Source: an uncultured Sutterella sp.
GTDB taxonomy: Bacteria > Pseudomonadota > Gammaproteobacteria > Burkholderiales > Burkholderiaceae_F
DNA length: 13,532 nucleotides
Assembly (NCBI GenBank): GCA_900552195.1
Contig: URYO01000014.1
Coordinates: 1 to 13,532 of the forward strand
Direction of reading: 5' to 3'
Position numbers and translations under genes: made by a program. Positions 2,237 through 13,532 of the stretch are shown here, one piece after another. How positions within the stretch are numbered: the first letter of the stretch is position 1; each line of letters opens with the position of its first letter. Under the pieces are notes generated by a model. The model saw nothing but the letters and a program-made list of their open reading frames with translations. It was not told the DNA's origin and did no database searches.

Positions 2237-2823
2237 AACACACCTTTTGTGGACGGGATAACGTTGCGGGCGCGGGGATCGTACTCGCAGGCCATGCGCA
2301 GCGCGCGGCCGAAGGACTTAAAGACGGACTCGCACTGATGATGAGCGTTGATGCCGCGCAGATTGTCAATGTGGAGCGTGATGCGGGCATTGTTCGCGAG
2401 CGCCAGGAAGAACTCTCTCGGCAACTGGGTATCAAATTCGCCGATCATCGCGGCAGTGAAATCGACATTCCAGACCAAATAAGGACGGCCCGAGATATCC
2501 AAAACCGTGCGTGAGAGCGCTTCATCAAGCGGCACGTAGGCAGAGCCGAAACGTGTGATTCCGGCTTTGTCGCCTAATGCTTTGGCCAGACACTGGCCCA
2601 TCGCGATTCCAATATCTTCAACGGAGTGGTGTCCGTCGATATGAAGATCACCGTCGCACATCACGGTTAAATCGATTTGGCCGTGGCGTGCAATCTGGTG
2701 CAGCATGTGGTCGAAGAATCCGATACCCGTACGAATATCAGCTTTACCGGTGCCGTCAAGATCCATCGATACCAGGATCGATGTTTCTGCCGTCTGACGC
2801 TTTACATCGGCTCGTCTCGTCAT
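2233..2823 (-). CDS. hisB: HisB, imidazoleglycerol-phosphate dehydratase (monofunctional)
   Basis: HisB dehydrates imidazole glycerol phosphate to imidazole acetol phosphate. The 196-residue protein is the stand-alone dehydratase and lacks the N-terminal HAD phosphatase domain of the E. coli bifunctional form, so histidinol-phosphate phosphatase must be encoded elsewhere. The manganese-binding motifs are present: GFFDHML (about 35-41), DGHHSVED (about 63-70) and NAHHQCES (about 159-166). The ATG at 2823 is 10 nt after the hisD stop; its AAGGA ribosome-binding site overlaps the hisD TAA. The product of this step is the substrate of HisC, yet hisC is absent from the usual position just upstream. 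hisH overlaps the 3' end by 4 nt. Confidence 0.97.
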
Positions 2824-2833
2824 GATGAAATCC

Positions 2834-4144
2834 TTATTTCTTTTCCAGATCGTGAACGCGGTACATGGCGCTGGCAGCGTGGGCCGTCAGGAATTCGCCG
2901 CGGGCAAGCACGTCGGCAATACGGCCGAGTTTTTCTGCGCCGTGTTTGCTGACCTTCAAAACGCTCATGCGTTTCTGGAAGTCCCAAACACCGAGCGGGG
3001 AAGAATAGCGGGCGGTGCGGGAGGTCGGAAGAACATGGTTCGGGCCGGCACAGTAGTCGCCTAAAGCTTCGCAAGTGTAAGGGCCGACGAAGAGCGCACC
3101 GGCGTGGTGAATCTGGTCAATGTATTTGTCGGCGTCCTGAACAGAGAGTTCCAAGTGTTCGGGAGCGATCGTATCGGCAACCTTGCAGGCTTCTTCAATG
3201 GAACGCGTCACGATGATGGCACCGCGGTTATTGAGCGAAGCGGAAATGATGTCTTTGCGGGACATGCCTTTGATCTGACGATCAATGGATTCGGCCACTT
3301 TGTCGGCAAATTCGGCGTCATCGGTCAGCAAAATTGCCTGAGCCAATTCGTCATGTTCTGCCTGGCTGAAAAGATCCATAGCAATCCAGTCAGGATTGGT
3401 CTTACCGTCGCAAATCACCAGAATTTCAGAAGGACCGGCGATCATATCAATGCCGACGGTACCGAACACATAGCGCTTGGCAGCAGCCACGTAGGCGTTG
3501 CCCGGTCCGACGATCTTGTCAACGGCAGGAATAGTTTCCGTGCCGTAAGCCAAAGCGGCAATGGCTTGCGCGCCGCCGATGGTGTAGCACTCTTTAACGC
3601 CGGCCAGGCAGGCCGCGGCAAGAACGAGCTGATTGGGTTTGCCGCCCGGAGTCGGAACAACCATCACAATCTTCTTGCAGCCGGCAACGTGAGCAGGCAT
3701 GGCGTTCATCAGAACGGAAGACGGGTACGCGGCTTTACCGCCAGGAACATAGAGACCGACGGAATCGAGCGGAATGTAGCGGATGCCGAGCTTTGTTCCG
3801 TCTTCTTCCGTAATGGACCAGCTCTGTCCGAGTTCGTGTTCGTGGAACTCGCGGATACGTTGAGCAGCCTGAGTCAGGGCGTCTTTCTGGTCTTTCGGAA
3901 GCGTTTCAAGAGCTTCTTTCAGGTCGTCTTCGGTCAGACGGAATTCGGCAACGCTCTTGGCGTCCATATGGTCGAAACGATTGGTGTACTCAAGGACGGC
4001 CTCGTCCCCTCTGGCGCGGACATCCTGAACGATGGCTTCGGCGCGGCGTGTGATTTCGGGATCAACAGAGCTGTCGACTGCAACAAGCTCAGAGAATTTG
4101 GCCGCGAAATCGGGCTGCTGTGTATTCAATCTTCTAATGCTCAT
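2834..4144 (-). CDS. hisD: HisD, histidinol dehydrogenase
   Basis: HisD carries out the last two steps of histidine synthesis, oxidising histidinol to histidine with two NAD+. The 436-residue length is typical. Zinc and catalytic residues are all recognisable: Gln261 and His264 in FSQAEHDE, Glu329-His330 in IAPEHLEL, Asp363 in GDYCAGPNH and His422 in LTAHAASA. The family signature around [13 protein letters not shown] (about 232-244) and the [12 protein letters not shown] segment (about 131-142) are intact. The ATG at 4144 overlaps the hisG stop by 4 nt (ATGA). It is followed by hisB after 10 nt, with no hisC between. A long plus-strand open frame opposite this gene is a codon-usage shadow. 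Confidence 0.98.
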
Positions 4145-6160: not shown

Positions 6161-7813
6161 TTACTTAGCGTATTCGCGCCAATCTTTGTTATCCATCTTG
6201 ACGTAGTCCTTGCCTTTATAGTTCACGACCTTGGCATTGGCATTCTCAGAAACAGAATGCGTCTGCGGCAGGTCTTTCACAAGGTCTTTCAGAGGAACTT
6301 CCCCTTCCGGTTTTCCGAAGTAGTTAGTCTCTAGAACACGGCCGATCAGAGAGCTCACGGCAAGATAGCTCGTCTTAGTATCTACGGTAACCGGGCTGTC
6401 TGCGGGCGTTACGCCGATGAATTTCACCAAAGCAGGCACATGTGTAATGGCCGGGCTCGGAATATCACGCAAGTGCGCGACCTGAACCTTGTCGCCCTTT
6501 TCCGCTGCGCCATGCTCCGGCACAACAACCAGCATGACCTTGCGTCCGCTCTTTTCCAGATCGGTAATCAGGCTGCCTAAGTCATCGAGCATGGCCTGAG
6601 CTCTGGGTTTGAACGGAGCTAAACGGCGCTTGTTGGCAAAACGGTTGCCGTCATGCAGCGCGATCATGTTGATAAAGGTTGCACTTCTGCCGCCCTTGTC
6701 CGCAGCAATGGTGTTTTCGTAATCCTTAAAGACGGCGCGGGCGTCCCCGATCGGCTCTTCGTCAAAAGAGTCATAGCGCTTCGGATACTTCATTTCCGCA
6801 AGCTGCGGTGAAAGCCCGGCCAGATGACGCAGACTTTGATAGAAGTTGTCGTACTTACCGCTGTGGTCCATGAAAACGTGCTGGTTGTAGCCCAAACGAG
6901 CCAGACGGTTCATGATTTCGCAGTCGGGATTGCGGCCTTCGTACAGATCTTCATGAGAAGGCTGTCCGCAGACCGACTTCAGCAGACGCAGCGCAGCCGG
7001 ACCGGAATAAGACGTCGCGGAGTTAAAGTTCTCGAAGCGGATATTGAACTGCTTGAGAACTTCGTGATTTTCCAGACCCACGGCCTTCAAGTCGTCGTTG
7101 GAAAGTGAGCAGATATTCAGCAGAAGAATATCGAACGGCGTTGAATCTTTCGCCAGCTTGTCCGGCCACTCGGCTCTGCGGTCTTTTTCCGTGTCGTGGA
7201 AACGCTTCAGCCATTCATCGAGATTCTTTGAGGTAGGTTCAGCAGTCTGAGGAATGAGGTCGCTCTTCTTTTCTTCTTCTGCCGGTTTCTTGGCGTTGTC
7301 AACTGAAGCGACAACCTCAGTTGCCGGCGCCGGTGCTCTGAGCTGGGCCACAAAGGGCTGCCAAAGCGGTGCGCAAAGAAGAATAAACAAATAGCCGACA
7401 GTAAACGTCGTCACGCGGATATAGTCACGGATTGCGTAATAGATGATGATGAGCGCGATTCCGGCGCCGATCATCTCAAAGTTCAAAAAGTTCAGAGCTG
7501 AGTCGAGGAGATAGCCGCTTTCCATCGCCGCAAGGTTATGGAAGTTGCCTCGAATGCTGTCCAACCCCGGCAGCCAGCTTTCGGAGTAAACCAATGCGGC
7601 TGCACAGACCACGGCAACTAAAGTACGAAACCAGCGCAGATAGCGGTTGCCGATCGGGAAGAGGACAAAAACCAAGAGCAGAACATTCTGCAGAAGGTTC
7701 AGCGAGAGATATCCGAACCCTCCGAGTAAAAATTCTCCGATAAAAAATACATTCCACAGACCGAGGCCGGTCCATTTCACTTTCGTCTGCTTGTTTTTTT
7801 CAGTCGCAGCCAT
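6161..7813 (-). CDS. bcsG: BcsG, cellulose phosphoethanolamine transferase
   Basis: BcsG transfers phosphoethanolamine from phosphatidylethanolamine to glucose residues of nascent cellulose. The 550-residue protein has an N-terminal membrane part (helices at about 20-40, 42-58, 62-76, 110-128 and 135-152), a charged Lys/Glu/Pro linker (about 170-200) and a periplasmic alkaline-phosphatase-fold domain. The zinc ligands of E. coli BcsG (Cys243, His396, Glu442, His443) correspond to Cys235 in NICSLS, His387 in ALHDGN and Glu433-His434 in VVPEHGAA. The nucleophile Ser278 corresponds to Ser270 in TSYSGPA by its 35-residue spacing from the Cys. The C-terminal LPQT..VSEN.NA block is also conserved. 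It starts 18 nt after bcsZ without a strong ribosome-binding site. E. coli has bcsG in a separate bcsEFG operon; here it is within the synthase cluster. Confidence 0.95.
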   Translation of the reverse strand: MAATEKNKQTKVKWTGLGLWNVFFIGEFLLGGFGYLSLNLLQNVLLLVFVLFPIGNRYLRWFRTLVAVVCAAALVYSESWLPGLDSIRGNFHNLAAMESGYLLDSALNFLNFEMIGAGIALIIIYYAIRDYIRVTTFTVGYLFILLCAPLWQPFVAQLRAPAPATEVVASVDNAKKPAEEEKKSDLIPQTAEPTSKNLDEWLKRFHDTEKDRRAEWPDKLAKDSTPFDILLLNICSLSNDDLKAVGLENHEVLKQFNIRFENFNSATSYSGPAALRLLKSVCGQPSHEDLYEGRNPDCEIMNRLARLGYNQHVFMDHSGKYDNFYQSLRHLAGLSPQLAEMKYPKRYDSFDEEPIGDARAVFKDYENTIAADKGGRSATFINMIALHDGNRFANKRRLAPFKPRAQAMLDDLGSLITDLEKSGRKVMLVVVPEHGAAEKGDKVQVAHLRDIPSPAITHVPALVKFIGVTPADSPVTVDTKTSYLAVSSLIGRVLETNYFGKPEGEVPLKDLVKDLPQTHSVSENANAKVVNYKGKDYVKMDNKDWREYAK

Positions 7814-7831
7814 GCTCAGAACTTAACTTTA

Positions 7832-8929
7832 TTAGTTGTTTTTAGGTGTCATTGTTTTAACGGCCACGTTGTCGGTAGGCAGAATCAGGCGCCCCTTCTC
7901 GTCGAAGGCATAGGTGCGGTTATCAAAGCCCAGACCGAAAACAGTCAGCACGTTGCGGTAATAATTATCGCCCTTCATTTCCGTCGAGGTGAGCACCGTA
8001 CGAATCACCGCACCGGCCTTATCTGCAGCCACATAGGGCAGAAAGCAGGCGCCGAAAGCATTGACCTGACGATTGTTGACAGTCATGTCGCCGATGTTGA
8101 CTTTTTCAGGCGGAATATTGGTTGCCTTGACGAGATTAATCATCGGTTCGTACTGGCGCATCAGCACTTCATAGTTCTGATCTTTAGGCGACAGAATGCC
8201 GGACCACAGGTAGGTTCGGATGGCGTTGTAGCTGCCTTCCATCTGCTGAGGATCGACAAGGCGTCCCTGAGCGTCAAATTTAGCCCAGTCCGGCGCCACA
8301 CCGCTCGGAGAGCAGCGCACCATGGCGTTGATGGAACCTTCCAGCACCGGGAGCCAATACGGATCGTAATCGGCAAAGCGGCGCAGGATGTGCGGCGGAT
8401 AGTAGCTTGGGTTGATGGTGATCACGCCCTTCTCTTCAAATCCGACGCGGCCCGGAAGGATGATCTTGCCGACGGTCGGCACGTCACGAACGAGCTCTTT
8501 AAGCTTGGCAAGGTAACCGTCAGCCTTCGGAAGGTAGGAAGGATCATTCCAGATGCGGGCCGCTTCGATCAGACAGTAGGCAATCCACATGTCCGAGTCG
8601 GTGGCGTTGTTGGTATCCAAGATCTTGCCTGTTCCATTGGGCTTGCCGTCCGGAATACCCCAAAGCCAAGCAGGCTGATTTTCGCCGAGATTCTTTTCCG
8701 TCCAGGCAAACATCTCGTCAAAAGCCTTTTTGTCATTGGCAACCAGAGCGAAGAACATCCCGTAGGACTGTCCTTCAGAAGTCGTAATCAGCTTGGCTTC
8801 GCTGTAGTCAACGACGCGGCCTTCGGGCGTAAGATTCGTTGCTTTAAATTGATCCCAAAGTTCCCAGGCACCCGCAGGAGCTGCGAACACGGCAGAGATC
8901 AGGCAGGCAAGAAGAAAGTTCTTTTTCAT
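7832..8929 (-). CDS. bcsZ: BcsZ, periplasmic GH8 endo-1,4-beta-glucanase with altered catalytic base
   Basis: BcsZ is the periplasmic cellulase of bacterial cellulose systems, thought to trim or detangle nascent glucan. The 365-residue product has a signal peptide (residues 1-21, cleavage after AGA) and the GH8 alpha/alpha-barrel. The general acid equivalent to E. coli Glu55 is Glu52 in TTSEGQSYGMFF, and the substrate-positioning acidic motif is NNATDSDMW (about 107-115). The expected catalytic base (Asp243 in E. coli, in SSYDAIR) is Asn235 here, in GSYNAIRTYLW; the codon at 8227-8225 is AAC. The enzyme may therefore be inactive, slow, or use another base as some GH8 subfamilies do. It starts at ATG 8929 with a strong AGGAAGGAG ribosome-binding site, 18 nt after bcsB. 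The rest of the fold looks intact, so this is not an ordinary decaying gene. Confidence 0.95.
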   Translation of the reverse strand: MKKNFLLACLISAVFAAPAGAWELWDQFKATNLTPEGRVVDYSEAKLITTSEGQSYGMFFALVANDKKAFDEMFAWTEKNLGENQPAWLWGIPDGKPNGTGKILDTNNATDSDMWIAYCLIEAARIWNDPSYLPKADGYLAKLKELVRDVPTVGKIILPGRVGFEEKGVITINPSYYPPHILRRFADYDPYWLPVLEGSINAMVRCSPSGVAPDWAKFDAQGRLVDPQQMEGSYNAIRTYLWSGILSPKDQNYEVLMRQYEPMINLVKATNIPPEKVNIGDMTVNNRQVNAFGACFLPYVAADKAGAVIRTVLTSTEMKGDNYYRNVLTVFGLGFDNRTYAFDEKGRLILPTDNVAVKTMTPKNN

Positions 8930-8947
8930 GTTGTGGTCTCCTTCCTC

Positions 8948-11212
8948 TTAGTTGCGGCGGTTGCGGAAGCGGATTAAAGAATGCATCAGGTAGTAGATGC
9001 CACCTGCAAAGAGCAGTGCGCACACCAATGTGAAGAGCACAAGAAGAAGCGGCTGGTCTAAGAGCGAATACCAAACTCTCTGGTGCCACGGCAGGGATCC
9101 TGTGTAGTAGTCAGGGCCCACCATGTAGCTCGCAGGCTGAGCATTCGGTTTGAATATCGCCACACCGCCACCGACCATCTTCAGGTCTCCAGGGTTCATC
9201 AGGCGTTTGTTCAGGAGGTAGCTTCCGTCCTGACCGTCACCTAAGATTGCGACGACCGAGCGGCCGCTGCCGTACGGAGATTCATACTGAGCAATCGTGG
9301 CAATGCCGGTGTCTTCCGTGACAGTGGACTGAGGAGCAGCGTCTTTAGACTTTGCTTCGAAATTAGACTTCAAGTTGCCTTTAACTTTTTCAAGAATAAT
9401 CTCGGGCTCAAGTTTGCCGAGATTATCGATATCGGCGCTGTTTTCAGCAAAGACCAGAATGTCGCGGTGCTGAGCGTTATCATTCTGGATGGCAGAGTCG
9501 AACGTAACTTTCGTGACGGGAGCACCCGTCTGCGCACCGAAGCGGCCCATTGTATTGAGCATCGTCGTCATGACGTTAGCCGGCGCATCTTTCTTCATCA
9601 GCACCAAGGTCTGAGACAAGTCGGCATACTTCGTAAACGGATAGCCGCTCACGGTAAAGAGCTTCAGATCCGGCAGGCGTGCAAAGTGATAGAAACCGGA
9701 GAAGTCGATCGTGGAGTTCGGATCGATTTCCACCTGGTTCGGAATCAAGGTCACGGACTTGCAGTTGGCCTGAGTTCCGCCGTCAACCGCCAAACCGTAT
9801 TGGAAGTCAAACGTCAGCTGATTTTCCGCGGACAGCAGGCGGCTCGGAATCGATGTGTTGTTCCACAGATTTGCCAAGCCATTAATGAACGAGAACTGCG
9901 ACATAAACGAGTTGCTCGTTTTTGTCGGGCTCAGGTCATAGGACTCGACCAACTGGTCATTCAGCAGGAAACGCATCTGGGCCGGTTCTCCGCCCATCGG
10001 ACGCGTGTAGCGATAGCGTAGGTCTAGATTCACATTGCTGCGATTGACCATGAAAAGGTCCGGCGGGAGACGTACGTCGAGCTTGATCGGAGCCGGATGC
10101 AGACCGGTGCTGGTGAGCTGGCCGCGATACTTGGAAAGCTTCTCGAACGGAATCTTTTGATCGGTGTTGACCCAAGACGGCGCGTCATAAGCCTTGCGAT
10201 CCGGTTCGCCTTTGAAGTTTTCAATCGTGACCATACCGCCGGCAATTCCTGCGTCAGCAGCCGCCAGATAACGGGCAGCTGTCAGCAGATCATCGGCGTT
10301 GCGCCCGGCAATCACCAAAACCTTGGCGTATAAGCTGTTCGGCGCATTAACGATCGAAATCGTTGGCGCTTCGACTCTGGGCAGGAACTTCAGGAAGTCG
10401 GGACGGCTGTCGTTGGTGACAAAAGCGACATAGTTCTGCTCGGCCGGCTGTTCGTTGTAGTAGACCGGGAATTCAATTCCGCGCCACTCGGAGCGCACAC
10501 CGGCCCATGAAGCAAGTACCGCGGCAGCTTCTTTGAAGCGATTATCAGGTGTAGAAGCAAAAACCATCGGCAGCGTCGTTGCAGACGGACTGATGGTGTT
10601 GACAAAAGGCGCCGGCAGGATCGAAAGATCATTGGCCAAACGCAGCTTCTGAGTATTCAAAGACAGGTAGCTCGAAGAGTCGACCGTCAGCCATAAAGCA
10701 GGATTTGCGGGAGAGCCGCAAATCTGCGTGTACTGACCGACAAACTCCAGCGTCAGGCGGTTGGAGCTGTCAAACTGCTTCGCATTGAGATCGACTGTGG
10801 CGGAAACCTGATTGCCGAGCTGATCTTTGGTAATCGGAAGACTCTTCTGCAGCTGGCCGTTTAAGTAAACATTGAGCTGGCTCTGCTGAGGAATCAGGGC
10901 CGGAGACGGCGTGTAGCGGAGCGTGACCGAAGCCTTGGAAATCAGCTCGTTCTTTGCAGAATAAAAACGGAAAGATCTTTCGTTGTAGATGCCTGTCATC
11001 TTGATCTGTTCAATCGCTCCTTCCGTGGAGTAATTAAACAAGGGGCTGTCTTTGCGGATCACCGGGATTTCGTCTGTCCGGAAGGCCGGCTGAACATCCC
11101 GCATAAATGTGGCGGGTTCAGGGGCGGCGGACGCAACGCTCGCAAGAGCTACACTCAGTGCGCAGAGCACTGTACCGGATAGAAGAAGAGAGAATCTTTT
11201 ATTCTTAAACAT
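8948..11212 (-). CDS. bcsB: BcsB, cellulose synthase periplasmic regulatory/partner subunit
   Basis: BcsB is the membrane-anchored periplasmic subunit that pairs with BcsA; its C-terminal anchor is needed for synthase activity, and its carbohydrate-binding and flavodoxin-like domains guide the polymer outward. The 754-residue protein is of normal length. It has a signal peptide (1-29, cleavage near ASA-A), two carbohydrate-binding-domain regions (about 65-180 and 375-510), the conserved block around PNSTIDFSGFYHF (498-510), and a C-terminal helix at about 721-747 followed by a basic cytoplasmic tail RFRNRRN. The ATG at 11212 lies 28 nt after the bcsA stop, with a GGAAG sequence about 12 nt upstream. 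Without the bcsA 3' duplication the spacer would be 68 nt. bcsZ follows after 18 nt. Confidence 0.96.
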   Translation of the reverse strand: MFKNKRFSLLLSGTVLCALSVALASVASAAPEPATFMRDVQPAFRTDEIPVIRKDSPLFNYSTEGAIEQIKMTGIYNERSFRFYSAKNELISKASVTLRYTPSPALIPQQSQLNVYLNGQLQKSLPITKDQLGNQVSATVDLNAKQFDSSNRLTLEFVGQYTQICGSPANPALWLTVDSSSYLSLNTQKLRLANDLSILPAPFVNTISPSATTLPMVFASTPDNRFKEAAAVLASWAGVRSEWRGIEFPVYYNEQPAEQNYVAFVTNDSRPDFLKFLPRVEAPTISIVNAPNSLYAKVLVIAGRNADDLLTAARYLAAADAGIAGGMVTIENFKGEPDRKAYDAPSWVNTDQKIPFEKLSKYRGQLTSTGLHPAPIKLDVRLPPDLFMVNRSNVNLDLRYRYTRPMGGEPAQMRFLLNDQLVESYDLSPTKTSNSFMSQFSFINGLANLWNNTSIPSRLLSAENQLTFDFQYGLAVDGGTQANCKSVTLIPNQVEIDPNSTIDFSGFYHFARLPDLKLFTVSGYPFTKYADLSQTLVLMKKDAPANVMTTMLNTMGRFGAQTGAPVTKVTFDSAIQNDNAQHRDILVFAENSADIDNLGKLEPEIILEKVKGNLKSNFEAKSKDAAPQSTVTEDTGIATIAQYESPYGSGRSVVAILGDGQDGSYLLNKRLMNPGDLKMVGGGVAIFKPNAQPASYMVGPDYYTGSLPWHQRVWYSLLDQPLLLVLFTLVCALLFAGGIYYLMHSLIRFRNRRN

Positions 11213-11240
11213 ATCTGACCGAGATCTTCCGAATTACTCA

Positions 11241-13532
11241 TTAATCCGTATTATTTCTAACTGCGTAAGATTTTAGTTTGTTATTACGCGCTATGAGCCG
11301 ATGAAATTGTTTTAGGCAAATTGTTTTAGGCAAGTAGAGCGGATGGGTTTCCTCAAAAGGAGAATTCTTGTTTTCGCGTCTAAGTGACGGGACTCGAGGA
11401 ATAAAACTGATGACCCACTTAAATGTCCAAACCGAGGCCTTCAGGAACCAGCCGGCCTGAGGATTCGAAAAATGCGCAAATGCCTCAGCGCCCATGCGCG
11501 CCATGTGCAGCAGCGCAAAGAAGCCGTCAAACATGCCATAGTCTCTAACCTTCGCTTGTCTCTGGATCCAAATATCCGGCGTTCCGAACGTGCACTCGAC
11601 ATATTCCATTTCTTTGGTACGCGTCGGCTGAGAGACCAAAAGCTCGACAACGCCGTTTTCAAAAGCGGCCGTCACTGTGCAGTCAAACGTTGTCGAAGGC
11701 TTTTTCTTAGGGCCAAAAACCAGCTTTACAGGCTCTTCGAGCGAAACCTTGCTTAGGTCTGAAGCGTTTTTCAAGTCTACGACGCAGTCTTTCTGAGAGA
11801 AAGCGGACATAACGGCCGGAATCGAAATCTCTCCGACCTGAAGGTGTACCGGTGCGGTGAAGGACACACGCGGGAATTTGCGTTTCTGGACACTTTCGAC
11901 CGTCACGGCCATCGCGGCAAACAGAATGATCAGGTTGTAGATAATCCAGCCGAGGTTGATCAAAAGCATCAGAACTTCGTAGGCGCTGGCTCCGACCATT
12001 CTGTAGAGGCCGATAAAGAAGCCGGCCAGGTTTAGGAGCAGCAAATAGAAGTACGGACGAGCGACAGCCCAGTCCAAATATTCTTTATCAATTACGCCAC
12101 CCTTAGCCGTCACGTTGAATTTACCCTTGTGAGGCGCGATAAGTGCAACGAGTGTCGGCACGAAGATGTACCAGGATAAAATCGTTTCATAGAGCGCGCT
12201 GATAAACGGGAATCGATAGCCGCGGTGAATCATGTACGTCGTCATCGTGGAGTGAACCATATGCGGGATCAGGTACACGAAAATAGCGATCGCACTGGCG
12301 TAAATCACGTAGATATTGGCAAAGAGGAACGGCAGCGGAGCGATTAAGAAGATGATTCGCGGCAGTCCGTGCAGGAAGTGGATCATCGCATTTAAGAAGC
12401 ACAGGCGCTGCGGAATCGTCAGGCCCTTGCCGAAAAGCGGATTATCCAAGCGGAAAATCTGCACCATGCCTCGGGCCCAGCGGATTCGCTGTCCGATATG
12501 CGCCGCCAAAGTTTCCGTACTCAGACCGGCAGAAAGGGGCGTACTTAAGAAAGCCGAAGACCAGCCTCTGCGGTTGAGCTTCAAAGAGGTATGCGCGTCC
12601 TCGGTCACCGTTTCCACAGCAATGCCGCCGACTTCTTCCAATGCTTTACGGCGCATGATGGCACAGGAGCCGCAGAACATCGTTGCGTTCCATGTGTCAT
12701 TGCCCTTCTGAATGAAGTCATGGAAGAGCGAGTTCTCATTCGGAACATTCTCTTTGAGATGCAGGTTCTTTTCAAACGGGTCCTGCGAGTAAAAGTGATG
12801 AGGCGTCTGCACCAGAGCGATTTTCTCGTCCTTTAAGAACCAGCCCATCGTCTTTTGCAGGAACGTTTTTACCGGTACGTGGTCGCAGTCAAAGATGGCA
12901 ATGAAGTCGCCCTTAGTGATGCCCATCGCGTGGTTAATGTTGCCGGCCTTGGCGTGCTTGTGTTCTTCGCGCTCGATATAGCCGGCGCCGACTTCACAGG
13001 CAAAGTCTTTAAATTCCTTACGACTGCCGTCGTCCAAGATATAAACATTGAGTTTTTCTTTGGGCCAGTCTACGGTGAGCGCTGCGTACACCGTCGGTTT
13101 CACAACGTCCAGCGGTTCGTTGTAAGTCGGAATGAAAATATCGACACTCGGCCAGCGCTCCTTATCCTTCGGCAAAGAGGCGGGTTTACGGTCAAGCACC
13201 CAGCAGACCTGGAAGTAGCCGAGCAGCATCACGATGAAGGCATAGGTTTCAGCGATGATCAGCAGCCATGTAAAGATCACAGAGGTGTAGCTGTTGGGAT
13301 TCAGTGTTTCCGAATAACGCCACCAAACGTAGCGGGACGACACGATGACCGAAATCACGATCAGCATCAGCAGCGTAAAGCGGGTTTGCGCCTGAAAGAG
13401 TGTAAGCGCGATCACACCTAAGATCAGCAGGAAGATGACTTGTTCTTCCAAACTGAAGGGCTGAGTGATACAGAGCACGTAGAGCACGAAGCCGATCGCG
13501 AGCAAAAAGCCCACGAAGATCTTCTTAAAAAG
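11241..13532 (-). CDS. bcsA: BcsA, cellulose synthase catalytic subunit (N-terminus outside window)
   Basis: BcsA polymerises UDP-glucose into beta-1,4-glucan and moves it through its own membrane channel. Numbering here is from the GTG at 13514, but the frame is open to the window edge (LFKKIF precedes it) and E. coli BcsA continues well N-terminal of the matching CVTQPF segment, so the true start is probably outside. The GT2 core is complete: DDG 161-163, DCD 209-211, HAKAGNINHA about 187-196, TED 304-306, QRIRW 342-346 and the gating loop FNVTAKGG 466-473. The flanking membrane helices are present. The PilZ domain follows: RKFPR (545-549) satisfies RxxxR, but the D/N-x-S-x-x-G motif is degenerate, AFSQKD (571-576). 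The last 25 residues (733-757) arise from a 14-bp tandem duplication that shifts the frame. bcsB follows 28 nt downstream. Confidence 0.96.
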   Translation of the reverse strand, partial: LFKKIFVGFLLAIGFVLYVLCITQPFSLEEQVIFLLILGVIALTLFQAQTRFTLLMLIVISVIVSSRYVWWRYSETLNPNSYTSVIFTWLLIIAETYAFIVMLLGYFQVCWVLDRKPASLPKDKERWPSVDIFIPTYNEPLDVVKPTVYAALTVDWPKEKLNVYILDDGSRKEFKDFACEVGAGYIEREEHKHAKAGNINHAMGITKGDFIAIFDCDHVPVKTFLQKTMGWFLKDEKIALVQTPHHFYSQDPFEKNLHLKENVPNENSLFHDFIQKGNDTWNATMFCGSCAIMRRKALEEVGGIAVETVTEDAHTSLKLNRRGWSSAFLSTPLSAGLSTETLAAHIGQRIRWARGMVQIFRLDNPLFGKGLTIPQRLCFLNAMIHFLHGLPRIIFLIAPLPFLFANIYVIYASAIAIFVYLIPHMVHSTMTTYMIHRGYRFPFISALYETILSWYIFVPTLVALIAPHKGKFNVTAKGGVIDKEYLDWAVARPYFYLLLLNLAGFFIGLYRMVGASAYEVLMLLINLGWIIYNLIILFAAMAVTVESVQKRKFPRVSFTAPVHLQVGEISIPAVMSAFSQKDCVVDLKNASDLSKVSLEEPVKLVFGPKKKPSTTFDCTVTAAFENGVVELLVSQPTRTKEMEYVECTFGTPDIWIQRQAKVRDYGMFDGFFALLHMARMGAEAFAHFSNPQAGWFLKASVWTFKWVISFIPRVPSLRRENKNSPFEETHPLYLPKTICLKQFHRLIARNNKLKSYAVRNNTD
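11304..11331. repeat. Perfect 14-bp tandem duplication inside the 3' end of bcsA
   Basis: The unit AAATTGTTTTAGGC occurs twice in direct succession (11304-11317 and 11318-11331), followed by two further matching bases. Because 14 is not a multiple of three, the second copy changes the bcsA reading frame. With one copy the frame would end at adjacent TAA TAA codons at 11286-11281. Confidence 0.95.

Follow-up and report, generated by a model that had tools for sequence, protein, structure and literature searches.

The bcsZ gene of the window (the whole 13,532-nucleotide stretch of DNA analysed here) encodes a GH8 periplasmic endoglucanase of 365 amino acids (positions 7832 to 8929, minus strand), in which Asn235 (codon AAC, 8225 to 8227, minus strand) occupies the canonical general-base position, that of E. 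coli Asp243. Changes between Asp and Asn at this position have occurred many times in BcsZ, and an acid in the loop preceding it is statistically coupled to Asn in part of the cases. Since the Asn swap is recurrent and often accompanied by a neighbouring loop acid, the enzyme has probably stayed active, and its base may have moved. Judging from these sequence comparisons, we give about an even chance to the reading that the window encodes a working periplasmic endo-beta-1,4-glucanase, part of the cellulose synthase complex, whose general base has been relocated. The initial annotation of this DNA had recorded the Asn in an otherwise intact motif, and alignment confirmed this, with the rest of the GH8 active site intact; that the Asn/Asp swap is widespread and recurrent goes beyond that annotation.

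The window protein scores 198 bits against the GH8 profile PF01270 (curated cut-off, 24), falls within the (alpha/alpha)6 fold of that family, and has BcsZ as its whole-protein match. Its gene adjoins bcsB (8948 to 11212, minus strand; PF03170, E = 1.2e-172) and the cellulose synthase gene bcsA (11241 to 13532, minus strand; glycosyltransferase 2 and Cellulose_synt domains), whose start lies beyond the window and whose ORF continues in locus L149. With bcsG, which encodes a pEtN transferase homologue of 550 amino acids (6161 to 7813, minus strand; PF11658, E = 1.7e-159), the gene order is bcsA-bcsB-bcsZ-bcsG. GH8 subfamily a, marked in the excerpted source by an Asp base where CelA has Asp278, does not accommodate the window protein, which has Asn235 there. 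Subfamily b reportedly (Adachi, 2004) has Asn at the base position and a base Glu in the preceding loop, and presumably includes the chitosanases CSN-MN and ChoK (as GH8b). The window protein shares the Asn and has two acids in the preceding segment, Glu231 at -4 from Asn235 (codon GAA, 8237 to 8239, minus strand) and Asp226 at -9 (codon GAT, 8252 to 8254, minus strand), our first and second candidates for a relocated base, in an offset and loop unlike those of CSN-MN E261 (-10).

For the comparative analysis, 643 of 649 sequences were reduced to 313 non-redundant representatives of BcsZ and close GH8 enzymes, of which at least six (L173, L174, L181-L183 and L279) are more distant GH8 members and not plain BcsZ. 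The general acid Glu52 (8774 to 8776), Asp111, Asn173, Tyr176 of the NPSY motif (8402 to 8404) and Arg238 of the NAIR motif (8216 to 8218) are identical in 313 of 313. Asp113 (8591 to 8593), matched by motif to the -1 subsite Asp of AfmE1 (Asp95) and EbBcsZ (Asp115) as described in source excerpts, is Asp in 312. All of these codons lie on the minus strand, and the coordinates of Glu52, Asp113, Tyr176 and Arg238 were obtained by arithmetic. From its conserved motif, Tyr176 is assumed to be equivalent to AfmE1 Tyr160, named in the excerpted source, and to position the nucleophilic water. Glu52, Asp113, Tyr176 and Arg238 are all invariant within the 174 representatives that carry Asn at the base position. 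The base is therefore the one catalytic position that moves. That the other catalytic residues are frozen argues against decay, and also against a pure binding protein, whose acid could drift; the initial annotation's reading of a precise functional change stands, and pseudogene decay was ruled out on the invariant residues.

Asn at this position is widespread among the relatives of the window. Among the best 120 of 1570 homologues plus the query, Asn was found in 110 of 121 sequences, Asp in nine, Ile in one and a gap in one. BcsZ is present in 34 of the 67 genomes of the window's family, and the 38 family loci read divide into 32 with Asn and six with Asp; they derive from 40 matches, two of which, fragments in G012, were left out of the count (L063, a named record whose match spans the same coordinates as these fragments, has Asp). 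Both an Asn and an Asp copy occur in four genomes (G051, G056, G059 and G060), an Asp copy only in G026 and G027. The close named loci are from Parasutterella, Turicimonas, Sutterella and Duodenibacillus. Because 32 of 38 family loci carry Asn, the residue is not a strain mutation, and sequencing error was likewise ruled out. Deamidation, by which Asn would become Asp, was considered; Asn-Ala, the pair found here, is a slow site for it. The window's own genome, G000, yielded one BcsZ match; compared with window positions 7046 to 13151, it differs at 4 of 4095 and 8 of 1587 compared bases, so that it represents either a very close relative or a second assembly, not the identical record; its BcsZ protein is identical.

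The same alternation extends beyond the family: the Asn, for which the initial annotation had suggested an alignment check among related genomes, is not confined to one lineage. A scan for related loci returned none from the single sequence and 548 from alignment A1, of which 80 were kept; across 148 loci plus the query (some genes fetched twice) there were 76 Asn, 72 Asp and one Glu. The 120 listed homologues of L133 (Burkholderiales), which include Cupriavidus, Paraburkholderia and Dyella, comprised 115 Asn and five Asp, and the 120 listed for Cedecea davisae BcsZ comprised 113 Asp and seven Asn. Class- and family-wide genomes added 140 further sequences, some of them re-fetches, and the final 313 representatives had Asn in 174, Asp in 136 and Glu in three. 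Three Burkholderiales BcsZ (L148, L276 and L277) have Glu at the base position. An IQ-TREE tree, from which the base column and the twelve preceding columns had been left out, implied 26 Asn/Asp changes over the 310 N/D representatives, at least 17 of them forced by well-supported (starred) branches; the tree has long branches and is unrooted, so these changes carry no direction. FastTree, applied to the first 200 representatives, gave 22 changes over three states, one of the states being a single Glu.

We found an acid at positions -4 to -7 relative to the base in 152 of 174 Asn forms, as against 42 of 136 Asp forms, and an acid at -4 itself in 85 of 174 against five of 136. As kinship inflates such raw counts, we used independent pairs on the tree. 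With 17 such pairs on the IQ-TREE tree, the -4 to -7 acid changed in the same direction as Asn in 6.6, in the opposite direction in 0.2 and not at all in about 10 (median p 0.03, range 0.004 to 0.69 over random pairings); for -4 alone the figures were 5.6 in the same and 0.1 in the opposite direction (median p 0.03). A scan of residue classes over the whole protein (2768 column/class tests, uncorrected for multiple testing) gave modest top hits, and non-acid classes (hydrophobic at 225, Lys at 193 and Lys at 209) reached ranks equal to that of the loop acid. For this reason the loop signal was evaluated as an acid window among 197 windows. Within the first 200 representatives, the four overlapping windows that immediately precede the base took ranks 1 to 4 of 197 and the next controls were much weaker; in the larger set, single columns gave a net of about 5.0 for -4 compared with 3.3 for the best of 125 control columns, the -4 to -7 window having been picked after viewing the first set, which the larger set includes. 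Restricting the comparison to 59 representatives of new sequences only, the -4 signal held (12 of 21 Asn forms, two of 36 Asp forms), and the -4 to -7 signal was weak (13 of 21 and 15 of 36). Swaps between relatives illustrate the coupling: AESAYN in L235 faces AQGAYD in L238 (84% of tree columns equal), AESAYN in P0158 faces AQSAYD in P0168 (76%), and AESAYN in P0212 faces AQGSYD in P0230 (76%).

Among acid windows from -4 to -10, the coupling is restricted to the -4 to -7 loop acid. An acid at -9 or -10, the chitosanase-like place, is enriched in Asn forms (129 of 174, against 55 of 136 Asp forms) but is uncoupled on the tree (3.5 vs 2.6 pairs). A single replacement acid conserved in all Asn forms was also considered and rejected: an acid somewhere from -4 to -10 is present in 173 of 174 Asn forms, but in 119 of 136 Asp forms as well.

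Which acid would serve in the window protein was considered in the light of known systems, for which we drew on excerpts of the papers cited here and of PMC5407803, PMC13363691, PMC5829257, PMC9318390 and PMC9615241. The E. coli and Enterobacter enzymes have E55/D243 and E54/D242, respectively, with Ile at -4, whereas the window protein has Asn235 and an acid at -4. BpEG, a GH8 endoglucanase of Burkholderia pyrrocinia, is reported to have 11.2 U/mg on CMC, its authors quoting 5.2 U/mg for the E. coli enzyme, and from a homology model Glu83 was named as its proton donor and Glu271 as its acceptor (PMC6987409). In the BcsZ of the congener B. ambifaria, Glu84, Asp145, Pro210, Trp231, Glu272 and Arg279 correspond to six residues given for BpEG at a constant offset of one, and Asn276 stands at the base position with Glu at -4. 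Judged from this congener, BpEG is very probably an Asn form, because 85 of the 90 N/D representatives with a -4 acid are Asn and five are Asp. BpEG would then resemble the window protein both in the same conserved residues, including the Glu at -4, and in the Asn; its B. ambifaria counterpart differs in being only 39% identical to the window protein, and the 9.8 kb read of L233 showed no BcsG. Glu231 is the equivalent of Glu271, the acceptor named in the BpEG excerpt.

The chitosanases point to the other acid. In CSN-MN (GH8), E74 and the loop residue E261 are named as catalytic, and in model simulations E261 hydrogen-bonds N271, the residue after the +2-subsite Y270, according to the excerpted text (PMC6362164). 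For inverting enzymes, a separation of 6 to 12 Å between acid and base is quoted. The Asn beside the +2 Tyr and the base Glu in the preceding loop, described for both CSN-MN and ChoK, would parallel the window protein, with N271 as the presumed counterpart of Asn235 on the strength of the Tyr-Asn neighbourhood and with no alignment behind it. Asp226, at -9, lies near the -10 offset of E261 from N271. The window's 17 closest homologues, some of them near-identical, have the -4 acid in nine and the -9 acid in 16. Covariation and BpEG speak for Glu231, local conservation and the chitosanase position for Asp226, and the data do not decide between them.

In the mechanism we propose, Glu52, Asp113 of the -1 subsite and Tyr176 as holder of the water, conserved as described, would keep their roles, and Asn235, aligned in the place of the helix-capping Asp, would hold the preceding loop by a hydrogen bond, as proposed for the GH8 chitosanase. 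A loop acid before it, most likely Glu231 and possibly Asp226, would deprotonate the attacking water. The role of the enzyme, taken over from E. coli, would be that of BcsZ generally, the cutting of stray or jammed glucan in the periplasm. The initial annotation had raised the use of a different base, as in Asn-bearing GH8 subfamilies, and this is the best reading, though unproven, given the covariation of the loop acid, the chitosanase precedent and the putatively Asn-bearing, active Burkholderia counterpart, the last two seen in excerpts. If the coupled loop acid is indeed the catalytic base, a wider and more tentative reading, which we regard as possible while stopping short of favouring it, is that the BcsZ base acts as an evolutionary shuttle that has moved between helix and preceding loop many times with the other catalytic residues frozen. 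Relatives about 76 to 84% alike would then use different bases for the same inverting reaction, the location of the base possibly serving as a tuner of the rate or pH at which glucan is trimmed in the periplasm.

The main rival is that the Asn forms are low-gear hydrolases that have no true general base: Asn235 would only orient the water or act as an imidic tautomer, slow hydrolysis would suffice for clearing stray chains, and the loop acids would rebalance charge. We take this to be a serious possibility, if a doubtful one. A precedent is the GH45 subfamily C endoglucanase PcCel45A, which, as excerpts describe it, resembles the window protein in being an inverting cellulase with Asn in place of the base Asp, and differs from it in belonging to GH45, not GH8, and in that the Asn itself is proposed to be an imidic-acid base. 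The fold of PcCel45A is unrelated to that of GH8. In the GH8 xylanase TtGH8 the same Asp-to-Asn change, D281N, leaves around 0.1% of activity, and products were visible in D281N crystals after a long xylohexaose soak (excerpt of PMC6173055). GH8 base mutants are described as drastically reduced in activity and not dead; Enterobacter BcsZ D242A barely acts on bacterial cellulose, and the authors suggest that a weakly nucleophilic water may still finish the reaction (excerpt of PMC8805304). E. coli D243A still supports cellulose secretion, at a much reduced level, and E55A supports none above background (excerpt of PMC11379886). Our own counts also fit slow Asn forms in part. Of the 174 Asn forms, 22 have no acid at -4 to -7; the N/D pairs that are closest to each other, three in number, show no loop-acid change (L090/P0292, 88%; L075/L078, 86%; P0146/P0134, 86%); and the net loop charge at -4 to -10 averages -1.8 for Asn forms and -0.1 for Asp forms. 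However, the activity of BpEG, the presumed Asn form, exceeds that quoted for the E. coli enzyme, and the coupling of acid and Asn lies right beside the site. In the genus g345 (15 loci, L169 and L219-L232), 14 loci are Asn and none of these has a -4 to -7 acid, L231 being the sole Asp; the genus offers a natural test of Asn in the absence of a loop acid.

The Asn form as a non-hydrolysing subunit that binds or guides cellulose, as the initial annotation had entertained, fares worse, and we consider it unlikely. E. coli BcsZ D243A, like E55A, failed to digest CMC in a plate assay, in keeping with such a role for a protein that lacks the Asp (excerpt of PMC11379886), and the substrate-binding residues known from BcsZ structures (excerpt of PMC8805304) are kept in Asn forms. 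However, all 174 Asn forms keep Glu at position 52, with Tyr176 and Asp113 likewise invariant, and a presumed Asn form, BpEG, is active (excerpt of PMC6987409). In E. coli, moreover, CMCax or the unrelated Cel9M restores secretion to about the wild-type level, and the authors' view is that BcsZ activity, not a structural role, is required (excerpt of PMC11379886).

A base away from the canonical position with Asn in its place is already known from GH8 chitosanases, and Glu271 has been proposed for BpEG, as source excerpts show. Repeated switching of the BcsZ base to Asn, in part coupled to a loop acid, was not found in the titles and abstracts of open-licence PMC papers, among the matches listed. 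The catalytic bases of glycoside hydrolase families are regarded as fixed landmarks, Asp243 being the one used for BcsZ. If the base of this enzyme, which many cellulose operons encode, has moved repeatedly, motif-based calls of a 'dead' BcsZ would be mistaken in Paraburkholderia, Cupriavidus, Dyella and gut Sutterellaceae, and natural pairs such as P0158/P0168 would offer a clean comparison for studying how the base of an inverting enzyme is relocated. If the Asn forms are slow instead, they would reveal how small an amount of hydrolysis is enough for cellulose export. Both outcomes matter for the question of what BcsZ does.

We surveyed the operons by tblastn with the window's BcsA, BcsB, BcsZ and BcsG and E. 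coli BcsC, within the stretches read. Family Asn-form loci with long flanks have bcsA-bcsB-bcsZ-bcsG (L040, on a short contig, without bcsA), with a BcsC match only in L048, and the family Asp-form copies L033-L036 have bcsA-bcsB-bcsZ-bcsC with no BcsG match. This pairing favours a specialisation of the Asn form for pEtN-modified cellulose made by the neighbouring BcsG, a speculation of the initial annotation, as does the finding that Cel9M in place of E. coli BcsZ lowers pEtN modification, by which the two steps may be linked (excerpt of PMC11379886). However, the pairing fails outside the window's family, and a link of the Asn form to BcsG was rejected. The Burkholderiales Asn loci L157, L159 and L163 have a BcsC match and no BcsG match in the 14 to 15 kb read, and E. 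coli, which makes pEtN-cellulose, has the Asp form, according to the source excerpts. Neither state, then, needs the modification, and we regard the specialisation as highly unlikely. BcsG and BcsC are both matched in L059 and L061, Asn loci of the Succinivibrionaceae type, and in the Enterobacterales Asn loci L078, L086 and L096 bcsC adjoins bcsZ. Two cellulose operons per genome were seen in G060, G051, G059 and G056, one with Asp, a BcsC match and no BcsG match (L033-L036), the other with Asn, a BcsG match and no BcsC match (L152-L155).

In the stretch read, bcsC is not beside the window operon (6161 to 13532); the related loci examined were L150-L155, L039-L056 and L058. The BCSC_C domain is absent from the window's own genome (G000, 99.98% complete), with a positive E. 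coli control, and was found in nine of the 34 family genomes with BcsZ and not in the other 25; a full-length BcsC query against G000, run with no positive control, gave no match. The glucan of the window operon may cross the outer membrane by another route or stay periplasmic. Upstream of bcsA in L149, on the other strand (2320 to 3392), we noted by eye two ORFs, one of them small, lipoprotein-like and containing a glycine-rich stretch, the other Ala/Gln/Lys-rich and secreted-looking; the former has a counterpart, also seen by eye, beside the operon in L150. Several homologues (P0015, P0024, P0060, P0077 and P0104; 437 to 484 residues) bear a C-terminal tail in which Ala, Pro, Glu and Lys abound, and the window protein ends without such a tail.
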